Source: Patescibacteria group bacterium
GTDB taxonomy: Bacteria > Patescibacteriota > Patescibacteriia > 2-12-FULL-60-25
Direction: 5' to 3'
Length of the DNA: 64,000 nt
Assembly: GCA_028688515.1 (NCBI GenBank)
Contig: JAQTXZ010000001.1
Span: 682,001-746,000 of the forward strand
The notes under the pieces: generated by a model
Database searches by the model: none
What the model was told of the DNA's origin: nothing
What the model saw: only the letters and a program-made list of their open reading frames with translations
Program-made: the position numbers and the translations under genes
Shown: piece by piece, positions 11,727 through 35,628 of the stretch
Layout: each line of letters starts with the position of its first letter
How positions within the stretch are numbered: position 1 is the first letter of the stretch

Positions 11727-11802
11727 CGCGGGGTAGAGCAGTTGGCAGCTCGCCAGGCCCATAACCTGGAGGCCGTGGGTTCAAGTCCCACCCCCGCAAC
11801 CA
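11727..11802 (+). tRNA. Initiator tRNA-fMet (CAT), CCA encoded
   Basis: A 76-nt cloverleaf. Acceptor CGCGGGG pairs with CCCCGCA except for the C1:A72 mismatch that marks bacterial initiator tRNA. D arm GAGC/GCTC; anticodon stem CCAGG/CCTGG with loop CCCATAA (anticodon CAT at 11760-11762); T arm GTGGG-TTCAAGT-CCCAC; discriminator A and an encoded CCA. The anticodon stem has two, not three, G-C pairs next to the loop. Its 3' end is the integration site of the downstream element. Confidence 0.93.
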
Positions 11803-11805
11803 AAT
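11780..11805 (+). repeat. attL: 26-bp core within the tRNA-fMet 3' end
   Basis: It starts in the T loop (TTCAAGTCCC), runs through the acceptor strand and CCA, and includes AAT. It is identical to 35603-35628. The tRNA gene remains complete on this side. Confidence 0.9.
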
Positions 11806-11881: not shown

Positions 11882-12988
11882 TTATATTTTGATACCCTCC
11901 AACAGTTGTTCGATGCTGGGAGCCTGCTGACGTAATTTCTCCATTTCTCTTTCTTCAACTCTGTCCAAAACATCAACAGCGGATTGAAGAGCGGAGGGAG
12001 CGAGGTGCGCGTAACACATAGTCGTTGTGACATTCGCGTGCCCCAACAAATTCTGAACTGCATTAAGCGGCACTCCTTCGCTGACCAAGGTTGAAGCAAA
12101 TGTGTGACGTAGAGTGTGCCACCCTATATATCGCATATCCGCTTTCTTACAAGCACGTCGCATCGCATTTTCGGCAATGTGATGAGAGAGTGCGGTTCCG
12201 TCTTCACGATGAAACACGAGCCCGTCCCTCTGCCTGCGTTCATAGATCATGCGCGCCAAATCGTTTGTCATTGGTATATAACGCGTCTTATTGCTTTTCG
12301 GCGTTCCTACGTGGCCGCGAACGATCGAGCGCCGTACGTTAATCATCTTCCGATCAAAATCCACATCCGACCAGTCGAGGCCAAATAGTTCGCCAAGACG
12401 CATGCCTGTCCGCAGAGCCATCAGCAACATTTCTTTCCACATAGGCTCATCGCAATTCTTAACCAACGCGATACTTTCAACGGGCGACAAAAAATCCAAA
12501 CGCTGCGATTCTGTCTTGAGCTTGCCGACCTTCGGCACCTTGTCCAATCTCCCCCACTCTTCAGCAACTCGAAGACATCGGAGAAGGATTGTTAAATGGT
12601 TGTTAACGCTTTTGCGCGATAGACCGGCATCAAGCTTAGAGATCTTATATTGCTCAATCATTCTCGAATCAATGGCCTTGATCTCTTTACCACCGAAAAA
12701 TGGCAGAAGATGCTTGCGCAAGATTGAGTTTTTTGTGCTTATTTCAGACGGCTTGTTCAACGCTCTGACAGAAGTTTCAAACCATTCATGAGCGAAATCC
12801 TTAAAGAGAACACACTGTTCGACCTTTGGTTTTGCGTTGATATCTTCTCCGTTTGCGAGTTTCCTGCGCAGGACTGACTCATAATCCTGCGCTGCCATCT
12901 TTGTGTTCATGGGGCTCCTTTTGCGGATGCGCTGACCTTGAAATTGGAAGTCAACCCAATAAGTCTTACGGTCCTTATAGTTTCCCAT
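11882..12988 (-). CDS. int: Tyrosine recombinase/integrase
   Basis: 368 residues from the ATG at 12986-12988; the frame is open to 13036, but MGNYKDRKTYWVDFQ is the natural integrase start. It has an N-terminal AP2-like arm-binding strand (YWVDFQFQGQRIRKRS), a SAM-like core-binding domain (VNNHLTILLRCLRVA), and a catalytic domain with ALRTGMRLGEL (Arg I), WHTLRHTFAS (His-x-x-Arg), LLGHANVTTT (His) and nucleophile Tyr in MCYAHL. It should act on the tRNA-fMet att sites, 80 bp away. It overlaps the excisionase-like gene by 14 bp, suggesting coupling. Confidence 0.93.
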   Translation of the reverse strand: MGNYKDRKTYWVDFQFQGQRIRKRSPMNTKMAAQDYESVLRRKLANGEDINAKPKVEQCVLFKDFAHEWFETSVRALNKPSEISTKNSILRKHLLPFFGGKEIKAIDSRMIEQYKISKLDAGLSRKSVNNHLTILLRCLRVAEEWGRLDKVPKVGKLKTESQRLDFLSPVESIALVKNCDEPMWKEMLLMALRTGMRLGELFGLDWSDVDFDRKMINVRRSIVRGHVGTPKSNKTRYIPMTNDLARMIYERRQRDGLVFHREDGTALSHHIAENAMRRACKKADMRYIGWHTLRHTFASTLVSEGVPLNAVQNLLGHANVTTTMCYAHLAPSALQSAVDVLDRVEEREMEKLRQQAPSIEQLLEGIKI

Positions 12989-13259
12989 AGTCTTGCGGGT
13001 TATTGCATTTAGATCGTTCAAAGTATTCCAATACATCCTGTTTTTTGAACAAAATTCGGTGGCACATCTTATATGCCGGCAACAGTTGCCTGGCCACGAG
13101 CCTATGGATCGTGATTGGCGCGAGTCTAAGTATTCCGGATACCTCTTTAAGGTTCAAGAGTTCTAAATTGGCGTCTAAAGCGACGCTGATGGTTGGTGAC
13201 ATATCTTTTTTAGGTTGTCGAGGTGCACCAGCCGATTGGGTTTGGGTATTTGTGAGCAT
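12975..13259 (-). CDS. xis: Excisionase-like helix-turn-helix protein
   Basis: 94 residues. A MerR/excisionase-type HTH spans about residues 33-85 (LLNLKEVSGILRLAPITIHRL, then KMCHRILFKKQDVLEYFER), as in recombination directionality factors. The N-terminal 30 residues are disordered; an internal Met (MSPTISVAL) is an alternative start. The 3' end overlaps int by 14 bp. A short leader ORF ends 5 bp upstream. Confidence 0.75.
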   Translation of the reverse strand: MLTNTQTQSAGAPRQPKKDMSPTISVALDANLELLNLKEVSGILRLAPITIHRLVARQLLPAYKMCHRILFKKQDVLEYFERSKCNNPQDYGKL

Positions 13260-13398: not shown

Positions 13399-13635
13399 TT
13401 AATCAGACTCGGCGTCTTTTGTGACATTCTCCACCTTCGTGGGATCGCTCTGTTCAAATCTTGAGCTGGCAGCCAATTTTTTTGAAGGTCCATTCTCTTT
13501 TGGTCTACGCCCCATCCTATAAGGCCACAACGCGCAATGTTCAGACGGGCAGAGCCGTACTTCCTTGCTCTGGCCACACATGCAGTCAAGGCAGTAAACG
13601 CGCATTGCCCTTAAAGGTCGATAGATTTTTGGCAT
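13399..13635 (-). CDS. Small zinc-binding protein of mobile elements
   Basis: 78 residues from MPKIYRPLRAM (ATG at 13633-13635); the frame extends to 13701 without a better start. The central YCLDCMCGQ, RLCPSEHCALWPYRMGRRP block has two Cys pairs typical of a small zinc-ribbon family seen in phage and integrative elements; its function is unknown. It overlaps the replication-initiator gene end by 25 bp, so the two are probably cotranscribed. Confidence 0.65.
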   Translation of the reverse strand: MPKIYRPLRAMRVYCLDCMCGQSKEVRLCPSEHCALWPYRMGRRPKENGPSKKLAASSRFEQSDPTKVENVTKDAESD

Positions 13636-14669
13636 ATTGTTTTTTTGCTTTTTTTGATTATTGGTTCGAATTTTTCTAATTGACTTTTGATAATCCCCCA
13701 CAAATCACCCCCCTGAGGCGGGCCTGCATTCTTAATCAAGCCGACGATCCGGCGATGCGTGTTAGGCGAGGTGGCTTGTTTATGGAGACTCAAAGCCTGG
13801 TCCATGCCGAAATCCCGAGCCAGTGCGAAAATTCCGTTGATCGTAAACGCATCGCGCCGTTTAATTCCTCCCTGTGCAACAAAAAGAGCTGGAACAGACG
13901 ATAGGCTTTTCATGCCGACAACCTCTAAAAGTTGGTCCGTTAAAATCGCTCTAGCCAAGTCCTGATTACAAACACTTTTCAAAGTTATGGGCTCGCTAAT
14001 TCCGTAATGTCTTAAAATCTCTTTGATTTTTACACCATTGAATCTTGCTTCCAGTCTGACCAATCCAGCGCAACTCCCATCCTTCATTACCCTCCCCAAC
14101 GAAATCATCGCCTCTGGATCATCTTGCGCACGAACCTCCTCGCTCTTGTCGTATAGCGTCAAAGTTGTTTTTTTCGTCTCCCAGATGAGTTGCGATCCAT
14201 TGCCTGCATACTTATAGTCTCTATTGTGACATCTTGTCTTAAATACAAAGACTTTAGCGTGGCTGAAAAATAAATCTGCGGTGACTGGCAACAAAAAATT
14301 CTTGCAAAAATCCAATCTGACTAAACGTGCGTTTGCAAGCTGATCCGATGACACGCATAAGCCAAAATTTGAGCTCAAAACGTCAATCAACTTATCACAT
14401 AAACGTGCAAAGTCAGTATCAACAAACTCATTTATGGAATCTCCATAGAGTAGCTTTGGCACAGAAAACTCAACCCGCAGCTCTATTTTTAGCTTCCTTG
14501 TCAATCGGACCGGATATCTTAAAAAGACAACGCGAGGCAGGTAAGAACCATCGCTTTGCCCTGTTGGCATTTTAAAACGATCGCAGCCGCATGTGGAATG
14601 TCTGGCATCGAGTATTGCATTTTTTGGTATTTCAAAACCATCCAATGCAAAGACAAGGGTATCGAGCAT
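13611..14669 (-). CDS. Phage-type (gpII/CRI-like) replication initiation protein
   Basis: 352 residues. The layout resembles rolling-circle initiators of filamentous phages and related plasmids (Phage_CRI/gpII group): an N-terminal half with ARLVRLDFCKNF, a YKYAGNGSQLIWETKKTTLT strand pair, the YDKSEE motif, VRLEARFNGVKIKEIL, and a helical C-terminal half. If correct it would nick a double-strand origin and let the element replicate as a circle after excision. The basic C-terminal tail is IKKSKKTICQKS. The family assignment is by pattern only, and I could not pin down the catalytic tyrosine. Confidence 0.55.
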   Translation of the reverse strand: MLDTLVFALDGFEIPKNAILDARHSTCGCDRFKMPTGQSDGSYLPRVVFLRYPVRLTRKLKIELRVEFSVPKLLYGDSINEFVDTDFARLCDKLIDVLSSNFGLCVSSDQLANARLVRLDFCKNFLLPVTADLFFSHAKVFVFKTRCHNRDYKYAGNGSQLIWETKKTTLTLYDKSEEVRAQDDPEAMISLGRVMKDGSCAGLVRLEARFNGVKIKEILRHYGISEPITLKSVCNQDLARAILTDQLLEVVGMKSLSSVPALFVAQGGIKRRDAFTINGIFALARDFGMDQALSLHKQATSPNTHRRIVGLIKNAGPPQGGDLWGIIKSQLEKFEPIIKKSKKTICQKSIDL

Positions 14670-19220: not shown

Positions 19221-19244
19221 ACCCGGCCAACACTCGGGTTTTTT
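19221..19244 (+). terminator. Terminator overlapping the next promoter
   Basis: ACCCG-N9-CGGGT then TTTTT. Its T-run merges into the -35 box of the 19243 promoter, so the RNA downstream is an independent transcription unit. Confidence 0.7.
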
Positions 19245-19271
19245 GACGAGTTATAGCAGAAAAGCTATATT
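19243..19271 (+). promoter_or_regulatory. Near-consensus promoter with operator-like inverted repeat
   Basis: TTGACG (19243-19248), exactly 17 bp, TATATT (19266-19271). An inverted repeat TATAGC-N6-GCTATA (19252-19269) covers the spacer and most of the -10, a classic repressor position. A similar inverted repeat overlaps a TATAAT at 35520-35540. Confidence 0.8.
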
Positions 19272-19277
19272 ATTACG

Positions 19278-19417
19278 GTCTAGGTTCGAACAATAGTCCC
19301 GCAAGCTTTTTGCTTATCAGGGTTGTGGTGCACCGTAACGGGCACTCCTGATAAAACAAGCGGCACGACCCTCGGGTCTGTTGTTTGGGCCTAGACACCT
19401 CAGGGGTGTCCTTTTGT
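19278..19417 (+). ncRNA. Candidate structured RNA / attenuator (novel)
   Basis: Transcript start is expected at about 19278, where GTCTAGG (19278-19284) pairs perfectly with CCTAGAC (19390-19396) as a closing helix P1. Inside: AAGC-TTTTT-GCTT; TTATCAGG (19314-19321) with CCTGATAA (19347-19354), capped by GTGC-A-CCG-TAA-CGG-GCAC; AACAA (19355-19359) with TTGTT (19381-19385), capped by GACC-CTCG-GGTC. AGTCCCG could alternatively pair with CGGGCACT. A terminator GACACC-TCAGG-GGTGTC plus TTTTGTTT (19394-19417) shares three bases with the P1 3' strand. The next ATG is at 19428. No known RNA family was recognised. Confidence 0.65.
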
Positions 19418-19427
19418 TTATAAGCTT

Positions 19428-19783: not shown

Positions 19784-21946
19784 ATGCGTAAAATATCTTT
19801 CTTCATACCATTGCTCTTGGTTACATTATTCCCAATTAAACAGGCACTTGCCATTACTCAAAATCAAATTAATGCAGAGGTGCAAATTGTTTGCCCTGAT
19901 TCTTATGGGAACTGGTTTAGTGGATCGGGTACAATTATAGATCCAAAGGGCATAATATTGACCAATAAACACGTCGTCACAGATCAATTTGGCGGAGATA
20001 TAAAAATCTGCTTTGTGGGTTTTTTAAGTTCTATAACTCAAGAGCCTAATTTTGGAACAAAAGACAATCCTAACTTCGCAGAAGTAAAATACGTGACTGA
20101 ATCCAATGATATGGACGCGGCGATTCTTTATTTAAACAACTCAACGAATAAAATATATTCATATGTTGATATATGGGGATCGAATTCAAATACACTTGCA
20201 TTCGGCGACAAATTAGAGGCTATTGGTTTTCCGACTATTGGAGGATCGACAATCACATACACTTCAGGCGACTTCAGTGGATTTGGCAGTAAAAGCGCTG
20301 GTACGCAGAATTATATCAAGACAACCGCCATCCTTGAACATGGTAATTCGGGTGGTAGCGCCTATAATTCGAGCGGTCAATTCATTGGTATCCCCACTAT
20401 GGTTGTCACTGGATCATTAAATTCAATCAGTTATGTTCTTTCGGTAAACAGTATTAAAAATTGGCTATCAGGACTTCTGGGAAGCGCGTATAAACAAGAT
20501 ATCCTCCAAGGTAAACCGACTATAGCCACACAGCCAGGCAGCATCCAAAATGACGTAACTCCGCCAAATAACAAACAATTTGCATTAAATCTATATAACG
20601 TTGATGAAAATGGCAATGTAATTCACTCTGCAACAGTAGGCGAGAGTGTACCCGTTTCCATTTATGAATTTCCAAGGGTTAAAATTGGTTGGTACGCGGA
20701 CTGCAGCGACGCGTACTGCATTAAAGACAATGAATCCAGCATTAAGGGGTATTATTATTATTTTGGCGATAATATTTCTGCGGATCCGGTAAAACATGGA
20801 GAATATATATCATCAGAGGATCTTTTGAAAGGTAAAGACTCTGAGGTGATATTGCCAAATGTATTTACGGCACTAAAAAATCAAAGTAACTATTTTATTT
20901 TAAAAGCTAAGGATGCACATGATAACATTTCAGATAGTCTATTTACATTTGAGTATATTTACGAACTCAACAGATTTAAGGATATCGAAAATATAAGCGT
21001 CAAAGATTCAAGCAATAAACTTATCGGGAATATTGGATATCCTAAAGCGTCTGAGATTCCAATGTGTGACAAGATTGATTGTAAAGGCGGTGGTCATTAT
21101 GACTATATTATTAAAGAAATATACACCAATCAAGATACGTTGTATTTAGAACCAAACTTTGGATACGGTATTGATGGTATAGCTTACAATTTAAGCTATG
21201 GCGAGGATACGGTTTGGGTGGGTAGTGTCAGAAAGGGCATAATTACCCCTGATACGTATTTAAAAGTCGATAATATTAAAAATCACAAAGTTGTAAATGT
21301 TTGTATTAAACCTGGGAAGGGAAGCGTTAATGAATTTACAGGATACTGCACATTAAGAATTCACTACAGAAGTAATTTCAATGAAAAAATAAAAATTGTT
21401 AACAGACAGAACTACTATGAGATGGATCGAATAAAATATCCTGAAATTTATTCAAATTTTAATTTAGACTACGAAAAAAGTGGTATAAATGATTGGGGCG
21501 AACTTAAGTATTCCGCAAATGATAGTTCTTTAATCTCAAAGCTGCTCGGCTATATCCTCCTCCAAGTCGAATCCCATGGCGAGGCTTGGTACGTGAATCC
21601 TTTAACCAACAGCCGTTCATACATGAAGGATGGTGACGTCGCATATCAAATGATGCGCTCATTCGGCCAAGGCATTGCGGATTCGGATTTAAGCAAAATC
21701 TCATCGGCAAGCACAACTAATGAGATTAAAAGCGCACCCAGCATCTGCGCATCAAACTCACTCGCCAATAGGATGAAGGGTAAGATTCTCCTACAGGTTC
21801 AGCAACACGGCGAGGCTTGGTATGTCTATCCAAAGAACTGTCGGATGATCTACATGAAAGATGGAGCGGCTGCTTACGAAATCATGCGATATTTGGGCCA
21901 AGGCATAGCGAACGCCGATTTGGCAAAAATAACGGCGGACGAATAA
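19784..21946 (+). CDS. Secreted trypsin-like serine protease with paired C-terminal CPR surface domains
   Basis: 720 residues from MRKISFFIPLLLVTLF (ATG 19784), which gives a signal peptide cleaved near QALA. The protease domain has a complete triad: His63 in TNKHVV, Asp111 in DMDAAIL, Ser189 in HGNSGGSAY. The middle (about 230-570) is a large domain I do not recognise, with SDAYCIKDNESS and CDKIDCKGG cysteines. The C-terminus has two copies of a domain (ILLQV..HGEAWYV.P...R.YMKDG..AY.(I/M)MR..GQGI...DL.KI) nearly identical in DNA to the one at 36862-37268 outside the element. It probably processes or presents proteins on the cell surface. Confidence 0.85.
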   Translation: MRKISFFIPLLLVTLFPIKQALAITQNQINAEVQIVCPDSYGNWFSGSGTIIDPKGIILTNKHVVTDQFGGDIKICFVGFLSSITQEPNFGTKDNPNFAEVKYVTESNDMDAAILYLNNSTNKIYSYVDIWGSNSNTLAFGDKLEAIGFPTIGGSTITYTSGDFSGFGSKSAGTQNYIKTTAILEHGNSGGSAYNSSGQFIGIPTMVVTGSLNSISYVLSVNSIKNWLSGLLGSAYKQDILQGKPTIATQPGSIQNDVTPPNNKQFALNLYNVDENGNVIHSATVGESVPVSIYEFPRVKIGWYADCSDAYCIKDNESSIKGYYYYFGDNISADPVKHGEYISSEDLLKGKDSEVILPNVFTALKNQSNYFILKAKDAHDNISDSLFTFEYIYELNRFKDIENISVKDSSNKLIGNIGYPKASEIPMCDKIDCKGGGHYDYIIKEIYTNQDTLYLEPNFGYGIDGIAYNLSYGEDTVWVGSVRKGIITPDTYLKVDNIKNHKVVNVCIKPGKGSVNEFTGYCTLRIHYRSNFNEKIKIVNRQNYYEMDRIKYPEIYSNFNLDYEKSGINDWGELKYSANDSSLISKLLGYILLQVESHGEAWYVNPLTNSRSYMKDGDVAYQMMRSFGQGIADSDLSKISSASTTNEIKSAPSICASNSLANRMKGKILLQVQQHGEAWYVYPKNCRMIYMKDGAAAYEIMRYLGQGIANADLAKITADE

Positions 21947-24319: not shown

Positions 24320-25654
24320 ATGAACTTTCTATTGGGCAATGCAAGAAAGAAGAAGGCAATCGCTTATTACCGCCATTCCGCCGAGGATAAACAAGAAAAT
24401 TCAGTCCCGTTGCAACGCGAATTTGTACGTAATTTTTTGAACAAATACGAAATAGATTTGATTCACGAAGAGTCTGATGAGGGAGAGAGCGGTTTAACGG
24501 CCAATCGTCCAGGGTTTCAAAGACTTTTTCAAAATTGGATATTCAATCAAGACATTGCATTTGATTATGTTGTGTTTTATGACGTATCCAGACTTGGACG
24601 CTTTGAGGACGCCGACGAAGCAGGGCATTACGAATTTCAATGCAAACAAATGGGTAAAGATGTTATTTATGCACGTAGAGGCATCGTACCTGACGATCAA
24701 AAAGGCATATCACAGATACAAACTGTGTTTGAGCGCTGGATGTCTTTTCAGTACAGTAAAAAGCTGAGTGAAGATGTAATCAGAGGTTGCATGGAAATAT
24801 CTAGCCAAGGGTATTCAGTTGGAGGTTGCGCCCCATACGGCCTTGCAAGGCTCCTCTTAAGTGCCGGTGATCGTAAGCCAATCAGAGTTATGAACGAGGG
24901 AGAACACAAAAGCATTGCCAATGAACGAATAACATTTATCCCTAAAGGCGACCATACAACCGAAACAGTGAAGTCGATTTTTAATGCGTTCTTAAATCGA
25001 CATCAACATTTTACAGACATTGCTTCCGAACTCAATACACAGGAAATACCTTCACCAAATGGAGGCCTTTGGAATAATGGCAAGGTTTTACGTATCCTAA
25101 GCAATCCGGCTTACAAAGGGACGTTGGTTTATAATAAAACTTGGGGGAGATTAAAGCGCAAGAAGAGAGATAATCCAACCTCTGAATGGGTCGTTTGCCA
25201 TGGGGCATTTCAAGCTCTAATAGACCCAAATGACTTCGATTCGGTCCAAGACAAACTTTTCTGGCTGTTGCCATCCCACTATCTCAAGGGGCGGAATATC
25301 CTTACGCGAGTAAAGAAAAACATCCGACACGATGTTGTAACCATGTTGGCAAAAAATGGTATCGAGCTTGACATCAATTCATTGCCCATTGCCTATGCGA
25401 TTAAGTGTAAACTGCCAAATCAAATCAATCATTGGTGCTTCTTTATACCATCTCGTCTGGAAAATTATAAAAAGTTCCTTTGTGTTAGCGTGAACGCAGA
25501 ACAGGAGAATAACATGGATCGAGTTTTTCAAATTCCAACTAAAGCCTTTGACATCAATGGGCTGTGTTATTTTTCTGAGCAAGACAGTTGTTGCTCAGAA
25601 TGGATGCTCAAAGATGACCAGATTGAGCAGGCTATCGTAGCACTAAGCAGCTAA
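24320..25654 (+). CDS. Large serine recombinase
   Basis: 444 residues. The resolvase domain has AIAYYRHSAEDKQENSVPLQ with nucleophile Ser20 and Arg18, and YDVSRLGRFED for the second arginine set. A recombinase domain follows (GYSVGGCAPYGL, ITFIPKGDHTTETVKSIFNA, NNGKVLRILSNPAYKGTLVY). The zinc-finger and coiled-coil tail typical of phage integrases is replaced by a divergent C-terminus. It is the second site-specific recombinase in the element, so it may belong to a nested module or act in inversion or resolution. Confidence 0.85.
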   Translation: MNFLLGNARKKKAIAYYRHSAEDKQENSVPLQREFVRNFLNKYEIDLIHEESDEGESGLTANRPGFQRLFQNWIFNQDIAFDYVVFYDVSRLGRFEDADEAGHYEFQCKQMGKDVIYARRGIVPDDQKGISQIQTVFERWMSFQYSKKLSEDVIRGCMEISSQGYSVGGCAPYGLARLLLSAGDRKPIRVMNEGEHKSIANERITFIPKGDHTTETVKSIFNAFLNRHQHFTDIASELNTQEIPSPNGGLWNNGKVLRILSNPAYKGTLVYNKTWGRLKRKKRDNPTSEWVVCHGAFQALIDPNDFDSVQDKLFWLLPSHYLKGRNILTRVKKNIRHDVVTMLAKNGIELDINSLPIAYAIKCKLPNQINHWCFFIPSRLENYKKFLCVSVNAEQENNMDRVFQIPTKAFDINGLCYFSEQDSCCSEWMLKDDQIEQAIVALSS

Positions 25655-27490: not shown

Positions 27491-29425
27491 CTACGCCACC
27501 CACAGATTTTCGCCGAACATCCTTTTTAGATTCCACTTGCGCGTAGAATCGACAGATCGCTCGAGACAGATAAAGCGCCGTTCTTTGAATGCATCGAGAG
27601 CATTAATTGTTTCTTCTTCGATGGTTGCATCCAGACAAACCAGGGCTGTTTTTTCACCATCAGAAACATCAAGCACTTTGTTCTTCTTAAAGTCTTTTAT
27701 CGGCTCGGCTTTAAAATTCAGGTCAAACCCATCCTTCAAGGCGATCTCGACCAGTAATTCATCCGGCTTATAGTCAAAAAAATGTGCCTGCTTAGAATTT
27801 TCCAAGTATATTTCCCAAGCCTTAACCTTTTGTTCCTCCGTCATGTCCGGATCAACCTCGAATAGGTTTTGAGGGAATAAAGACTTCGTAAGTCGCAACG
27901 CCTTGAATCCAACATCCACTTCCGGCTTTTCTAATTTAATCTTCACACCGGCACGCTTAACGCGCTCGATGGTGATTTGAGAAATGGTTTTGTAGCCGGC
28001 TTTGAATGCCTCGCTTTTTTCGTCCGTCGCTTCAGGGAGCTGAACGAGAATAAATGCCCTATTGCCACCAATTTCTTTGTTTAATTCCATTACAGCATGG
28101 CCAGTCGAGCCTGACCCAGCGAAAAAATCCAATACTAAAGAATCTTCCGGAATCCTTGATATTTCCATTAAATATTTTATCAACGCAAATGGTTTTGGAT
28201 AATCAAAAGGAATCTCTAAGTCGTTAAGTTCGTGTGAACCTATTTGATTAATATAATCTTCTACCAAACTATTTGGCTTCGCTGAAGCATCATTGATGAC
28301 ATCGTTAAGATAAGTCTTTGTAAAAACATTCCATCCAGCAGGTTGACCCTGTTCGTCTATTAAATTTGAAGATCTAACTTTTTTTATCACTATCCTATCT
28401 CTCTCTGCGTCAAATTTATTCCTCGTCCACCTCCAAATACCATCTCCAAGAATCGGTCTTTCTGGTGGGAAAGTGCTACCCGGTGGTATCACCTTTGTCC
28501 CATCTGGACAATCGATAAAAAAACGTTGTTCTGGGTTTCGATTTTCAATTGTCGACATGTATAAACGCACTAACTGATATTTTTCACCTTTTCTTGGTCC
28601 ATCCGTTTCTATTTGATCGTATGCTTCATAATTCACTCCGCCAAAAAATGGCGCTGCCTCGGCCCTGAATTTTGTATACGTCAAAATATAGTCAAAATTC
28701 GGTGCCCAAAAATCTCCTTTATTGTTACTTTTTTTGGCAACCCTGGCGGCACAGCCAACAAAATTCTCCTCCCCAAAAATTTCATCCATCAACTTCCGCA
28801 AATTGTGAACTTCATTATCATCAATGCTTACAAAAATTACCCCATCGTCGCGCAATAAATTTCGTGCCAAGAGTAATCTACTCTGCATCATGGACAGCCA
28901 ATTAGAGTGATAGCGGCCGCTCGATTCTGTATTCGTGTCCATGCGGACACCATCATGATAGACGCCATTCTTTTCCCAGTATGCCTGTTTTGATTCGGAA
29001 TAGTCATCAGGATACACAAAATCATGGCCGGTGTTATACGGAGGGTCAATGTAGATCATCTTTACTTTTTTGAAATACGAAGCTTGAAGTAGTTTCAGAA
29101 CTTCTAAATTCTCTCCTTCAATGATAAGGTTCTGCGTCGTATCAAAATCTACGCTCCGCTCCTTGTCCGGTACGAGCCTCGCCTTGCTAGGCGTGAAGGC
29201 AAACCGCTTAGAAGCGGTTTTACCTGCCCATGGGAAAGAGTAGCGTTCCGCTTCAGGCTTAGAGTAGTCGTCGACGAGCGATTGAAGTTCTTTCACGTTT
29301 AACGCGTTGTCTTCGCCGAAAAGCGCAGGGTAAATCTCCCGGATTTTCTCCAGAATATCTTTCCGCGTATCCGGGCTAGTGGCGGGGATTTTGTTGAGGT
29401 TCGTGTCTTCGTTTTGCTTAGACAT
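27491..29425 (-). CDS. mod: Type III restriction-modification methyltransferase (Mod)
   Basis: 644 residues. N6-adenine methyltransferase of the beta type: catalytic IDPPYNTG at about 126-133 comes before the SAM-binding DFFAGSGSTGHAVMELN at about 440. ENLEVLKLLQASYFKKVKMI precedes motif IV as in Mod proteins. The central target-recognition region is variable (AGWNVFTKTYLNDVINDASA). A C-terminal region similar to known Mod ends is present. It methylates one strand of an asymmetric site and specifies DNA recognition for Res. Confidence 0.93.
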   Translation of the reverse strand: MSKQNEDTNLNKIPATSPDTRKDILEKIREIYPALFGEDNALNVKELQSLVDDYSKPEAERYSFPWAGKTASKRFAFTPSKARLVPDKERSVDFDTTQNLIIEGENLEVLKLLQASYFKKVKMIYIDPPYNTGHDFVYPDDYSESKQAYWEKNGVYHDGVRMDTNTESSGRYHSNWLSMMQSRLLLARNLLRDDGVIFVSIDDNEVHNLRKLMDEIFGEENFVGCAARVAKKSNNKGDFWAPNFDYILTYTKFRAEAAPFFGGVNYEAYDQIETDGPRKGEKYQLVRLYMSTIENRNPEQRFFIDCPDGTKVIPPGSTFPPERPILGDGIWRWTRNKFDAERDRIVIKKVRSSNLIDEQGQPAGWNVFTKTYLNDVINDASAKPNSLVEDYINQIGSHELNDLEIPFDYPKPFALIKYLMEISRIPEDSLVLDFFAGSGSTGHAVMELNKEIGGNRAFILVQLPEATDEKSEAFKAGYKTISQITIERVKRAGVKIKLEKPEVDVGFKALRLTKSLFPQNLFEVDPDMTEEQKVKAWEIYLENSKQAHFFDYKPDELLVEIALKDGFDLNFKAEPIKDFKKNKVLDVSDGEKTALVCLDATIEEETINALDAFKERRFICLERSVDSTRKWNLKRMFGENLWVA

Positions 29426-29439
29426 AGGTAGGGTTGGGA

Positions 29440-29709
29440 TTATTTTTTGATTCTTCCTAAGATCAATTCAATATAACCTCCGTATTCACCGGTATGAAGA
29501 ATGGTGTAATGGCCGGAATTGAGTTTTTGCTTCAGCTCTTCATTGTTGTTGATTTTGTCTATCTGAGTATTACGAAAAAATAAAACTCGTTCGATATCAT
29601 AGACGTTTCTCTGTTTCCACCATCCCCACATGGCAATAGCCGATGAAGCGACCAATGCGATGATCGATACGACTAACGCCACCGAGGCCAATATATCCGA
29701 AGTATTCAT
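29440..29709 (-). CDS. One-TM small protein inside the type III R-M operon
   Basis: 89 residues. A single transmembrane helix (SVALVVSIIALVASSAIAMW, about 9-28), then a cytoplasmic tail (NVYDIERVLFFRNTQIDKIN) with a compact beta-like end (HYTILHTGEYGGYIELILG). It lies between res and mod, 8 and 14 bp from them. This gene is not part of standard type III systems. It might be a membrane effector or regulator. Confidence 0.55.
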   Translation of the reverse strand: MNTSDILASVALVVSIIALVASSAIAMWGWWKQRNVYDIERVLFFRNTQIDKINNNEELKQKLNSGHYTILHTGEYGGYIELILGRIKK

Positions 29710-29717
29710 AGGAGTGA

Positions 29718-32393
29718 TCAGAAAATTCGGGTGCTAGTAGCCTCGTTAGCTTTTTCCTTGAATGTTTCGAACGTATCAACCGGTGCAAGATATTCCTTCA
29801 AACCGACAGCTTCAAAATGTTTAATGGCACAATCAATCTTCATGCGCTCGTCAGGTGTCAAATCTTCCTTGCGTTTGGTGCCTTTGGTTTCAACCACGAA
29901 ATGATAGGTCATTTCCGTTCCATCTCCATCAAGCATCTTTTTTTCTACCACAATCGCCCAGTCCGGGTGATGCTCGCCAATAGGAGTTGTGATGGAATAC
30001 CACTTGGGAAGTTTAAAGAAGAGACGAATGCGATGATCGTGATCCAATTCCGTACCAAAGCGACGCTCCACATCGCTATCTATCTTTTCAGCATCGTAAA
30101 GGCCATGGCCGGGAGTCGCCACGACATCACCCAACGTCTCGTCCAGCTCTTGAAAGAGTTTGGGTGCATACGATTCACCGGTTTGCTCATAGCGCACGAC
30201 GGTAACGAGTTCGCGGTCAATGACGCGCTTGATACGTTCGACTGCCTCGGTCATAAAAGCAATTGGATTTTTTGTGACGCGTTGTGGTTCTCCGGCTTTA
30301 AGTAGAATTTGCCGGATTGTATCAATCGCCAGTCCCGTTTGGTCGGAAATTTCGTTTACAGGATCCAATGAAGCTTTAACACCACGTGCGGCACGCGGGT
30401 CGGCTGCACCAACATACTCATTCCAAAGTTGCGGTGCATCTTCACGTCCAAGTGTGGTAATGCGGTTTAATTCGACATTGATTGACGGTTCAGGAACACG
30501 AATCTCACGGACAGCTTCGGTGCAGCGATCGATGATGCTTGGTTCATGAAACGACACAGACCACTGAGTTTTTAGCGCGATACGTTTCCACAACTCTGAA
30601 AAGTCATTACTCTCAAAACGTAATTTATTTAATTTTAACTTAGTTGGCTTTCTTCGAGCGTCACGTGGTTTGGGCGTTGGCGCATCCGAACCAAATTCTT
30701 CCGCAAGCTCATATTGATATGCTTCGGCAAAGGCTTGATAACTCTGATTTGCGATGACAGTAAGTAGATTGATCTCTTTACCCTCCTTAACATCCACCGC
30801 GTCGCGTACACGTTCACCAACTTGGTTCACACAAATACGAAGCCCGCGACCGATTTCTTGACGTTTGCGGTTCGTACTCTCGGTCTCGTTTAACGTACAG
30901 ATATTAAATACATTCGGATTATCCCAGCCAACACCAAGGGCGGAATGGGAAAAAATAAACTCAAGCGGCTCGTCTTGTGAAAGCAAACGTTCTTTGTCTT
31001 TCAGAATAAGCTGATATGCCTCACTATTCTTGCTCATGGATGCTTCGCTATCCGTCCATTCGCCATTTCCTGTTTTGGCAAAATAACCGCTGTGAATTAC
31101 ATCGAGGTTCGTCGGTTCTAATCCATATTGTTTTTTGTATGCCTCACGATATTGTTCATGGAATAACCGACGAATTTTACCATCTGTATTCATGTAATTA
31201 GCGACTCGGTCAATGAAGAAAAGTGACAAAACCTTAACCCCCTGTGAGCTTCGGCTGTCCTTTTTTTCGAAATGTTTTTGAATAGTCCACCGTATTTGTT
31301 CACGGAAAATCTCCTCAGAATCACGCCCCGTCTGTTCGCCCATCACAAGAACTGTACCATTTGTAAACTGGAGTTTTGTCTGGCCATCGTTCATGTCGCG
31401 CCATATACGCTCTATGACGAGACCTCGATAAGCCGGATTACCCGTTTTCTGCTCAAGATTATCGTCTTTTTTGCCAGTGATCGTTTTCGTCTTGAAACCA
31501 TTCTCTTTAAGGCGAACGTTGGCGGTCAGTTTGGCTTGTGGTGGCTTGGTGCCTGCGAAGATGGCATTCTTGAACGCCAAAGACTCCACAGTACCTTCCG
31601 TTTGGACTGAAAACACCTCAATTTTTTTCACGAGACTCTGGTTGTATGCATCAAACGGCGTGAGACGATATACGACGTTCTTTGGTTTTTCATGCGTAGC
31701 TGAATAGCGAAGTTTGAAGAGCGGATTAAGTGAGGAGAGCGCTTTTTCAGACTTAGCTGTACCCATGCCAACCTGTGGCTCGTCCATCACGATTATTGGA
31801 AAGGTCTGTTTTATCAAATCGATCAAGCGAACACCATAAGTTCCATCGCGCTCCTGCGAGATTATACGATCTTCGGCATTGAACGACTGGATGTTCATCA
31901 CCATGATCTGGAGCGTATTGGCTTCACAAAACGATTTTACTTGCGCCAACTTTTTGCTGTCATAAGCAAAGAATTCAAATGGGGTGGAATACAGTTCCTT
32001 AAAATGAGTACGGGTAATTTCGAGTGTTTTGAGCACACCTTCACGCACTGGGATGCTCGGAACCACGATAATGAACTTCGAAAGACCATAAGCTCGATAC
32101 AAGTCGAAGATTGTGCGGAGGTAAACATAGGTTTTTCCCGTACCAGTTTCCATCTCAATGGAGAAGTCCAACTCTTGGGTCTTATGCGCATCCTTATCGG
32201 CGATGCGACGTTCACATAGGATCGTGTCCCGATTCTGAAAAATACGCTCCGGTGTAAGTTTGAGGATGTTGGCATGAACTTCGGCCAAGATAGTGTCTCG
32301 TGACTTAACCCGTGGCGCGCCTTCAAACAATCGGGTCACCGAATCTATGGCGTCTAACTGATATTGCAAATTTGGCTCAAAATGAAACTTCAT
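29718..32393 (-). CDS. res: Type III restriction enzyme (Res)
   Basis: 891 residues. SF2 helicase plus nuclease: Walker A EMETGTGKT at about 80-88, Walker B IVMDEPQVG at about 202-209, FSHSALGVGWDNPNVF, and RQEIGRGLRI for motif VI. The C-terminal PD-(D/E)XK nuclease is visible as HPDWAIVV...HFVVETKGT. It cuts DNA after translocation or diffusion from two head-to-head sites bound with Mod. Length and motif order are typical. Confidence 0.92.
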   Translation of the reverse strand: MKFHFEPNLQYQLDAIDSVTRLFEGAPRVKSRDTILAEVHANILKLTPERIFQNRDTILCERRIADKDAHKTQELDFSIEMETGTGKTYVYLRTIFDLYRAYGLSKFIIVVPSIPVREGVLKTLEITRTHFKELYSTPFEFFAYDSKKLAQVKSFCEANTLQIMVMNIQSFNAEDRIISQERDGTYGVRLIDLIKQTFPIIVMDEPQVGMGTAKSEKALSSLNPLFKLRYSATHEKPKNVVYRLTPFDAYNQSLVKKIEVFSVQTEGTVESLAFKNAIFAGTKPPQAKLTANVRLKENGFKTKTITGKKDDNLEQKTGNPAYRGLVIERIWRDMNDGQTKLQFTNGTVLVMGEQTGRDSEEIFREQIRWTIQKHFEKKDSRSSQGVKVLSLFFIDRVANYMNTDGKIRRLFHEQYREAYKKQYGLEPTNLDVIHSGYFAKTGNGEWTDSEASMSKNSEAYQLILKDKERLLSQDEPLEFIFSHSALGVGWDNPNVFNICTLNETESTNRKRQEIGRGLRICVNQVGERVRDAVDVKEGKEINLLTVIANQSYQAFAEAYQYELAEEFGSDAPTPKPRDARRKPTKLKLNKLRFESNDFSELWKRIALKTQWSVSFHEPSIIDRCTEAVREIRVPEPSINVELNRITTLGREDAPQLWNEYVGAADPRAARGVKASLDPVNEISDQTGLAIDTIRQILLKAGEPQRVTKNPIAFMTEAVERIKRVIDRELVTVVRYEQTGESYAPKLFQELDETLGDVVATPGHGLYDAEKIDSDVERRFGTELDHDHRIRLFFKLPKWYSITTPIGEHHPDWAIVVEKKMLDGDGTEMTYHFVVETKGTKRKEDLTPDERMKIDCAIKHFEAVGLKEYLAPVDTFETFKEKANEATSTRIF

Positions 32394-33870: not shown

Positions 33871-35316
33871 ATGATAAATGAAAATGTAATAGACAAAAAA
33901 GGAATTGGATACGTTATCCAAGAGGAAATCGGACGTGGTGGTTTTGGTACCGTGTACCTAGCCAAGACCAAAGAAGGTTTGCCTTATGCTATAAAATTCA
34001 TGGGGCCGATAGACAATAAAGCTGCATTATTATCTTTCGAGCGTGAAGTTGCCTTGGCGACCGCAATTCAACATCAAAATATATTGGGCTTCGTGGGACA
34101 AGGAGAACATATCTATAGAGGAGCAGCTTATTTTTTTACCGTTACAGAATATTGTCCCGATGGCAATTATAGAGGCACCTTAAATACAGGCGGGGCTCCT
34201 CTTGATTCAATGATTAACGATTTTCAGCAGATTTTGTTAGGGCTCGATGCCCTACATCAAAAGCTCGTGCATCGCGATATTAAACCCGAGAACATACTTA
34301 AAGTAAAAGGCGATTTAAAAATTGGGGATTTGGGATTGTCAAAATCAATTGATGAGGCAACACAGACCATGACTTTTAAGGGGAGTGGTACGCCTTTATA
34401 TATGGCACCAGAAGTTTGGGAAAGAGGAAAGATTACACCCGCGACCGATTTATATGCTTGTGGAGTTATGCTTTTTGAAGCTTGTACTGGAAAGGCGCCA
34501 TTCGCATCAGATGACAGTTCAGAACTTCGTAGGTTGCATTTATATCAGTCCGCTCCACGGGCAAAAAATATAAATCCAAACGTACCTGACCATATTGATG
34601 GTTTAATCCGTAGACTTTTAGAAAAAGATCAAACAAAACGTTACCAAAGTGCAAAAGATGTGATAGCCGTTCTAACGGCTGGACAAGCCACTTCTCCTAA
34701 TAACTTGTTTTCTGGACTCAAAAATCGCATACGCCAGAGTTATGATGAGCAAGAGAGTAAACGACTTGAATTTGAGAAAACAGCAAACGATGCTCAAGAG
34801 GCGCAAGAAAGAATCCGTTATATGGAGAAGCAATTGCTTTCGCAATTCGATGATGTCGTGCAGGAAATAAATGAAGGTATTCAGGAGACGAAAATTCATC
34901 GCTCCGACGATGGAAATAGTGCACGCTATTCGTTAGGTCGACGCGCACTTTGTATAGATTTTTTTCGCCCTGGTGAAATCTATAATAACAAGACCTTGCC
35001 ATCAGTTCTCAAGGAACGCGGCGTGACGCAAGGAGGGGTCATTTTAATCCAAGATGACGGGCAGAATCGACAGGGTTGGAACGTAGTGTTGACACGTTCT
35101 GAAGAATGCCAATACGGTACGTGGCTTTTGATCGAAAGTGATATTTCACCATTAACCGGTAAGGCTTTAAGTTACCCGCCAGCGGCAACTGATTCTAAAC
35201 TTCTTTCAGAAAATCTTGCGTATCATTGGATGAAAACTATGCATACATGGCTGTTGAAGGACAAACCGCTGGAACAAGCAGACATAGTACGTATCCTAAG
35301 TGCGCTTATTCCGTAG
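33871..35316 (+). CDS. Hanks-type Ser/Thr protein kinase, soluble
   Basis: 481 residues. Glycine loop GRGGFGTVY (21-29), Lys42 in YAIKF, Glu59 in the C helix, catalytic HRDIKPEN (134-141), DLG (153-155, in place of DFG), GTPLYMAPE (173-181). A coiled coil follows (about 290-330) and then a globular domain that I do not recognise (GVTQGGVILIQDDGQNRQGW, CQYGTWLLIESDISPLTG). No transmembrane helix or PASTA repeats. It is next to the type III R-M/HEPN operon and may be a defence kinase, similar in idea to Stk2 systems; that is inference. Its 3' end is duplicated just downstream. Confidence 0.88.
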   Translation: MINENVIDKKGIGYVIQEEIGRGGFGTVYLAKTKEGLPYAIKFMGPIDNKAALLSFEREVALATAIQHQNILGFVGQGEHIYRGAAYFFTVTEYCPDGNYRGTLNTGGAPLDSMINDFQQILLGLDALHQKLVHRDIKPENILKVKGDLKIGDLGLSKSIDEATQTMTFKGSGTPLYMAPEVWERGKITPATDLYACGVMLFEACTGKAPFASDDSSELRRLHLYQSAPRAKNINPNVPDHIDGLIRRLLEKDQTKRYQSAKDVIAVLTAGQATSPNNLFSGLKNRIRQSYDEQESKRLEFEKTANDAQEAQERIRYMEKQLLSQFDDVVQEINEGIQETKIHRSDDGNSARYSLGRRALCIDFFRPGEIYNNKTLPSVLKERGVTQGGVILIQDDGQNRQGWNVVLTRSEECQYGTWLLIESDISPLTGKALSYPPAATDSKLLSENLAYHWMKTMHTWLLKDKPLEQADIVRILSALIP

Positions 35317-35602: not shown

Positions 35603-35628
35603 TTCAAGTCCCACCCCCGCAACCAAAT
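35603..35628 (+). repeat. attR: 26-bp copy of tRNA-fMet 3' end
   Basis: Identical to 11780-11805: T loop, acceptor strand, CCA and AAT. No tRNA 5' half lies upstream, so this is an attachment site and not a gene. Confidence 0.9.

Follow-up and report, generated by a model that had tools for sequence, protein, structure and literature searches.

A large leader RNA family conserved across Patescibacteria and probably acting by transcription attenuation

The 64,000-nucleotide stretch of Patescibacteria DNA analysed here (the window) carries one copy of a large, undescribed RNA family of known kind, which is conserved across Patescibacteria genomes and mobile elements. As judged from comparison of its homologues, the RNA is probably a cis-acting, riboswitch-like transcription-attenuation leader of a new family that drives Patescibacteria accessory genes, often on prophages or integrative elements. 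Its conserved pairings are those of a two-state transcription attenuator, in which an intrinsic terminator and an alternative long-range pairing (2:4) are predicted to be mutually exclusive; each of the two is conserved and shows compensatory changes.

Few bacteria are as poorly understood as Patescibacteria, and inducible tools are lacking for them (PMC11665869). The leader RNA is common, multicopy in some genomes and found with many kinds of cargo, and it can be tested with purified RNA polymerase. It provides a marker of the accessory and defence genes of Patescibacteria and, for these organisms, a candidate for a native expression switch. A literature search of incomplete coverage found no comparable native RNA switch described in Patescibacteria and no description of this RNA family.

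Table 1. Positions of the leader RNA, its parts, the genes behind it and the surrounding element in the window.
Feature	Position	Strand	Remarks
Integrative element in tRNA-Met (~24 kb), holds the RNA	11780-35628		26-bp exact direct repeat
Sigma-70-type promoter	19243-19271	+	-35 TTGACG 19243-19248, 17 nt, -10 TATATT 19266-19271
Whole leader RNA including terminator	19278-19419	+	fold z -6.1; covariance-model family
P1 5' strand	19278-19296	+	pairs with 19378-19396
P2 hairpin AAGC/GCUU	19303-19315	+	4/4 pairs covary
S1, UUAUCAGGG 19314-19322 / UCCUGAUAA 19346-19354	19314-19354	+	overlaps P2 and S2
S2 hairpin	19319-19372	+	19319-19327/19364-19372 and 19329-19331/19360-19362; loop bears strand 2; pairs covary
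Strand 2, conserved core GGGCACUCCUGA	19340-19351	+	core GGCA nearly invariant
P1 3' strand	19378-19396	+	final 3 nt GAC common to terminator
Intrinsic terminator GACACC-UCAGG-GGUGUC and U-tract	19394-19419	+	conserved, varying in step among copies examined
Strand 4 UCAGGGGUGUCC, terminator loop and 3' arm	19400-19411	+	complementary to strand 2, 12 bp
First downstream gene, 113 aa	19428-19769	+	PDDEXK-type nuclease by eye; no Pfam match
Second downstream gene, secreted trypsin-like protease	19784-21946	+	PF13365, E 1.8e-15

Distribution of the RNA family

The search started with BLAST of 38 related genomes with the window RNA, which yielded a single true homologue (G015, JAGOQX010000005.1), whose closing helix P1 already carried compensatory changes. 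A covariance model made from the window sequence alone brought in five further copies from 286 genomes of the class, and models were then rebuilt from 7 and 37 copies. The rebuilt models matched 16 of 381 genomes in a class sample, 24/380 and 29/362 in phylum samples and 76 of the 151 genomes of one Patescibacteria family with small genomes, counts in which a few of the weakest matches will be chance. Up to ten copies occur in one genome, and two viral contigs in IMG/VR carry true members of the family; exact core patterns of the RNA recovered no viral contigs, and distant BLAST against phages and plasmids returned no relatives. About 95 copies were examined in detail. Because homologues from other genera keep the promoter spacing, the fold and the terminator with compensatory changes, the leader RNA is not a chance structure. 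The earlier note had recognised no known family here and Rfam 15 bears this out, since positions 19278-19417 have no match at the gathering score and none even at E<=10; over the whole window, two tRNAs were matched and nothing else.

Some candidates were set aside. BLAST also gave weak matches in other genomes to the 5' strand of P1; they were rejected, two of them (L003, L004) as looking like tRNA T-arms and the remaining ones as short chance matches; window positions 19279-19303 resemble a tRNA T-arm plus acceptor (CTAGGTTCGAACAATAGTCCCGCA), which gives spurious matches elsewhere. Two covariance-model matches (L016, L052) were judged to be chance, as were the IMG/VR pattern matches L142-L146, which the covariance model does not find, and antisense model matches are explained by the palindromic P1. 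At two loci, copies lie close together in the same orientation (L127, 3001-3129 and 3480-3585; G730 C28, 256-374 and 443-572) and are possibly duplicated leaders.

Promoter, fold and alternative pairings

A promoter with 17-bp spacing (TTGACG/TATATT), which the earlier note had positioned so that transcription would start at a P1 strand, is present and its spacing is kept in homologues. In the window, 6 nt separate TATATT from G19278, the predicted transcription start and first base of P1. In 81/95 copies a -10 box matches in five or more of its six bases, and the best -10 box ends 6-7 nt before RNA nucleotide 1 in 86/95; control positions upstream seldom reach such scores. The predicted promoter is part of the leader RNA unit.

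The 140-nt stretch is predicted to fold at -63.9 kcal/mol (z = -6.1), and none of 200 shuffles was equally stable. P1 had been described as GTCTAGG/CCTAGAC closing a multibranch fold. This core is present (GUCUAGG 19278-19284 with CCUAGAC 19390-19396), but the helix is longer than claimed, with 19 bp (19278-19296/19378-19396) plus 4 bp, and it covaries; compensatory changes, which the earlier note had proposed to look for, affect both sides of all 20 modelled pairs (92.7% of cells paired). The inner helices are likewise all present, but one of them, TTATCAGG/CCTGATAA, while real, rivals the inner hairpin of the predicted fold. MAFFT alignments put the variable 5' arm wrongly, so pairing was tested via anchors. 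Cognate duplexes were more stable than non-cognate ones for P1 (-27.4 vs -9.8) and for S2 (-15.5 vs -10.7 kcal/mol), with 0/20000 permutations in each case, although here and below such counts take no account of kinship among copies and should not be read as exact probabilities. For P1, P2 and S2 together, 407 double-change cells were counted against 118 in shuffles, with a covariation score of 0.600 (0.161 shuffled; 0.045-0.118 with partners slid). Of the 45 pairs in the 37-copy alignment, 40 show changes on both sides; this alignment was fitted to P1, P2 and S2 and so leans towards those helices, but for P1 the alignment-free duplex-energy test agrees.

The intrinsic terminator GACACC/GGTGTC (arms 19394-19399/19405-19410) follows P1 directly and has GAC in common with it, just as first described, and this overlap is conserved. 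The accompanying suggestion that P1 weakens the terminator through GAC fits the conserved overlap, but is incomplete as an expression platform (3 bp against a P1 of ~20 bp). The most conserved loop strand is strand 2 (GGGCA plus about 7 nt), whose unpaired flanks are A-rich (UAA 19336-19338 and UAAAACAA 19352-19359; A frequency 79-91% at positions -5 to -3). In nearly all copies it is complementary over 10-13 bp to strand 4. In a first set of copies, the cognate 2:4 duplex reached -20.6 kcal/mol against -12.0 for non-cognate strands (0/20000 permutations), and in 20 non-redundant copies -21.3 against -12.0; a second set, read after the idea had formed, gave -19.5 against -11.0 (0/20000 permutations), a result lowered by misplaced anchors in L090, L094, L107, L120 and L127. 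Because strand 4 must pair with the terminator 5' arm too, the cleanest test of 2:4 is its outer pair, which lies outside the terminator stem and joins the base before GGCA to the base after the terminator's GUC. This pair is complementary in 92/92 cases (G-C 62, C-G 29, U-A 1), and only 10/93 show pairing with the obvious alternative partner, the base 5' of the terminator stem. In the A8 alignment the 2:4 columns appear 72.8% paired but are partly misaligned, and the anchor-based count is preferred.

Strand 2 has a second partner in S1, which is the TTATCAGG/CCTGATAA helix of the earlier note and is less universal than 2:4. The compensatory changes anticipated there were found: S1 covaries, with duplex energies of -10.3 (cognate) vs -5.4 in the first set (0/20000 permutations) and, more weakly, -7.2 vs -5.05 in the second, where it beats the non-cognate median in about two thirds of copies and is weak or missing in roughly one third. 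S1 appears in the predicted nascent fold of 36/40 copies. Nested folding of the full-length RNA, a method blind to the pseudoknot, places S1 in the minimum-energy structure of 30/40. For truncated transcripts of the window copy, S1 is predicted until the P1 3' strand emerges, and P1/P2/S2 from then on.

Downstream genes and the integrative element

Consistent with a conserved structured RNA in a 5' leader, 87 of 95 copies have a same-strand ORF within 150 nt of the RNA end (median gap 36 nt) and only 5 an opposite-strand ORF, with the proviso that ORFs came from a simple script and a few are very short, which will have made some assignments wrong. A Shine-Dalgarno sequence is clear between the terminator and the start codon in most copies of one family. 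The first gene of the window begins about 10 nt past the U-tract; because a second promoter does not fit in this space, its expression from the leader side needs read-through. Over 388 positions the window protease shares 47% identity with a protease directly behind the RNA in L022. The proposal of an attenuator controlling the nuclease-like gene and the protease is thus supported by the 87/95 copies and the gap of about 10 nt, though the platform proposed for it was incomplete.

Pfam searches of 70 downstream proteins returned methyltransferases, Tsp45I, EcoRI-methylase, GmrSD, HSDR_N and trypsin, and also DUF4352/DUF5067, DUF4190 and a pilin motif; restriction-modification enzymes and proteases are among the cargo, as are small membrane proteins. 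Counting ORFs from 100 aa upwards, a hydrophobic segment is present in 47/66 downstream ORFs vs 75/288 other ORFs of the same loci. No pathway that would point to a ligand emerges from so diverse a cargo. Within the short flanks, a serine recombinase relative was found in 25/95 copies and a terminase relative in 3; at L141, which has a terminase and HsdR, GmrSD lies directly behind the RNA.

The element that holds the window copy is bounded by two 26-bp copies of the tRNA-Met 3' end (11780-11805 and 35603-35628), which are its probable att sites. A tyrosine integrase gene (11882-13036) lies beside the first repeat, and ParB is also encoded. The element further carries genes for a G2P-type replication protein (13611-14669; PF05144), of a family known from filamentous phages, and a serine recombinase (24320-25654), type III restriction genes (27491-32393) and, near its edge, a protein kinase domain gene (33871-35316).

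Proposed switch, alternatives and known systems

The comparative data support a transcript that starts at the first P1 base and contains P1, P2, S2 and the terminator, followed by the cargo gene, and in which strand 2 can pair with strand 1 (forming S1) or with strand 4. In the mechanism we propose, S1 would form first on the nascent RNA and hide strand 2. Were S2 and P1 to displace S1 in time, strand 2 would capture strand 4 as it emerges while P1 held the GAC of the terminator, so that no terminator would form and the cargo gene would be read; were S1 to persist, or strand 4 to pair first with GACACC, transcription would stop. The read-through state would thus combine S2, the 2:4 pseudoknot and full P1, and the stop state would be S1 or the simple terminator hairpin. 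A ligand, a protein or polymerase speed may tip the balance, and the sensor is most likely to be found in the conserved A-rich bases on either side of strand 2. We infer this polarity from copies seemingly without S1 and from the guanidine-IV precedent: such copies keep both 2:4 and the terminator, which makes 2:4 the favoured competitor of termination. The 2:4 helix lies directly against the U-tract, however, and could bring about termination by itself, and its formation with P1 closed would require S2 to fold back along P1. More tentatively, the family may be an orphan riboswitch class distributed over Patescibacteria and the phages or integrative elements of these bacteria. It would then respond to a small molecule or a stress signal and govern a plug-in regulon made up of restriction enzymes, proteases and small envelope proteins.

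The contact of 2:4 with the U-tract means that the polarity could be the reverse: the 2:4 helix, with 12 bp set against the U-tract, would then terminate efficiently, and S1 would be an antiterminator that hides strand 2 while P1 hides GAC. Such a switch would profit from the greater stability of 2:4 (mean -20 vs -9 kcal/mol for the simple hairpin) and from its end closer to the U-tract, from which the simple hairpin is separated by 1-3 nt; we nevertheless find it unlikely, as the simple hairpin is also conserved and would terminate in either state, and as some copies seem to have no S1 and hence no antiterminator. An attenuator acting in cis is also preferred to a trans-acting small RNA that stands alone, arises by termination and has an incidental gene beside it, because a same-strand gene adjoins the RNA and its expression needs read-through. 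The own promoter, fixed start, strong terminator and stable fold would suit a small RNA, which the earlier note had offered as its second option, yet the 87 copies directly before a same-strand gene leave scant room for another promoter, and a constitutive small RNA has no need of conserved alternative pairings; we consider it very improbable, and the leader most likely acts in cis.

The put RNAs of phage HK022 are cis-acting, lie at the phage transcript start and affect termination, and they act on polymerase. A processive antitermination element, put-like or protein-dependent, by which RNA polymerase is modified, would share with the leader its place at the transcript start, the terminator immediately downstream and, in several copies, a phage-type context. 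We hold it to be improbable, because the systematic complementarity of this family with its own terminator, by which it differs from the put RNAs, points to direct competition. Least credible, to a degree that we hardly entertain it, is a folded-DNA recombination site of the attC type that exchanges cargo genes: the long imperfect palindrome and varied cargo would agree with it and some P1 arms fit RYYYAAC/GTTRRRY by eye, but the fit is confined to part of the copies, the flanks examined in the ~95 copies showed no cassette arrays, and the promoter, the terminator and the 2:4 covariation would be left unexplained.

No Rfam T-box match to 19278-19417 was found at E<=10. LOOT RNA (RF03000), whose alignment has many cross-covariations (PMC7657543), occurs in several of the same Patescibacteria genomes (over the cut-off in 7 of 14 searched), but the leader differs from it in consensus structure and sequence. 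It was rejected as a relative, since the window copy has no RF03000 match, G000 has none, and the match in L055 (2743-2860, about 1.1 kb behind a leader copy) is a separate locus. The ZTP (pfl) riboswitch remodels a transient early hairpin and uses a long-range pseudoknot and strand exchange with the terminator (PMC10907184), steps that resemble those proposed here, whereas the fold and the genes differ and the leader has no Rfam match. Comparable in mechanism, by analogy, is the guanidine-IV riboswitch (mepA motif), also a transcription-attenuating leader, whose pseudoknot with the terminal loop of an intrinsic terminator appears to destabilise that terminator (PMC10907184); Rfam gave no guanidine-IV match at E<=10, a result that counts only as far as that model is in the library searched. 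Unlike guanidine-IV, the leader described here has a long P1 closing a multibranch fold, its predicted pseudoknot also takes the whole 3' arm of the terminator, and its cargo is diverse.
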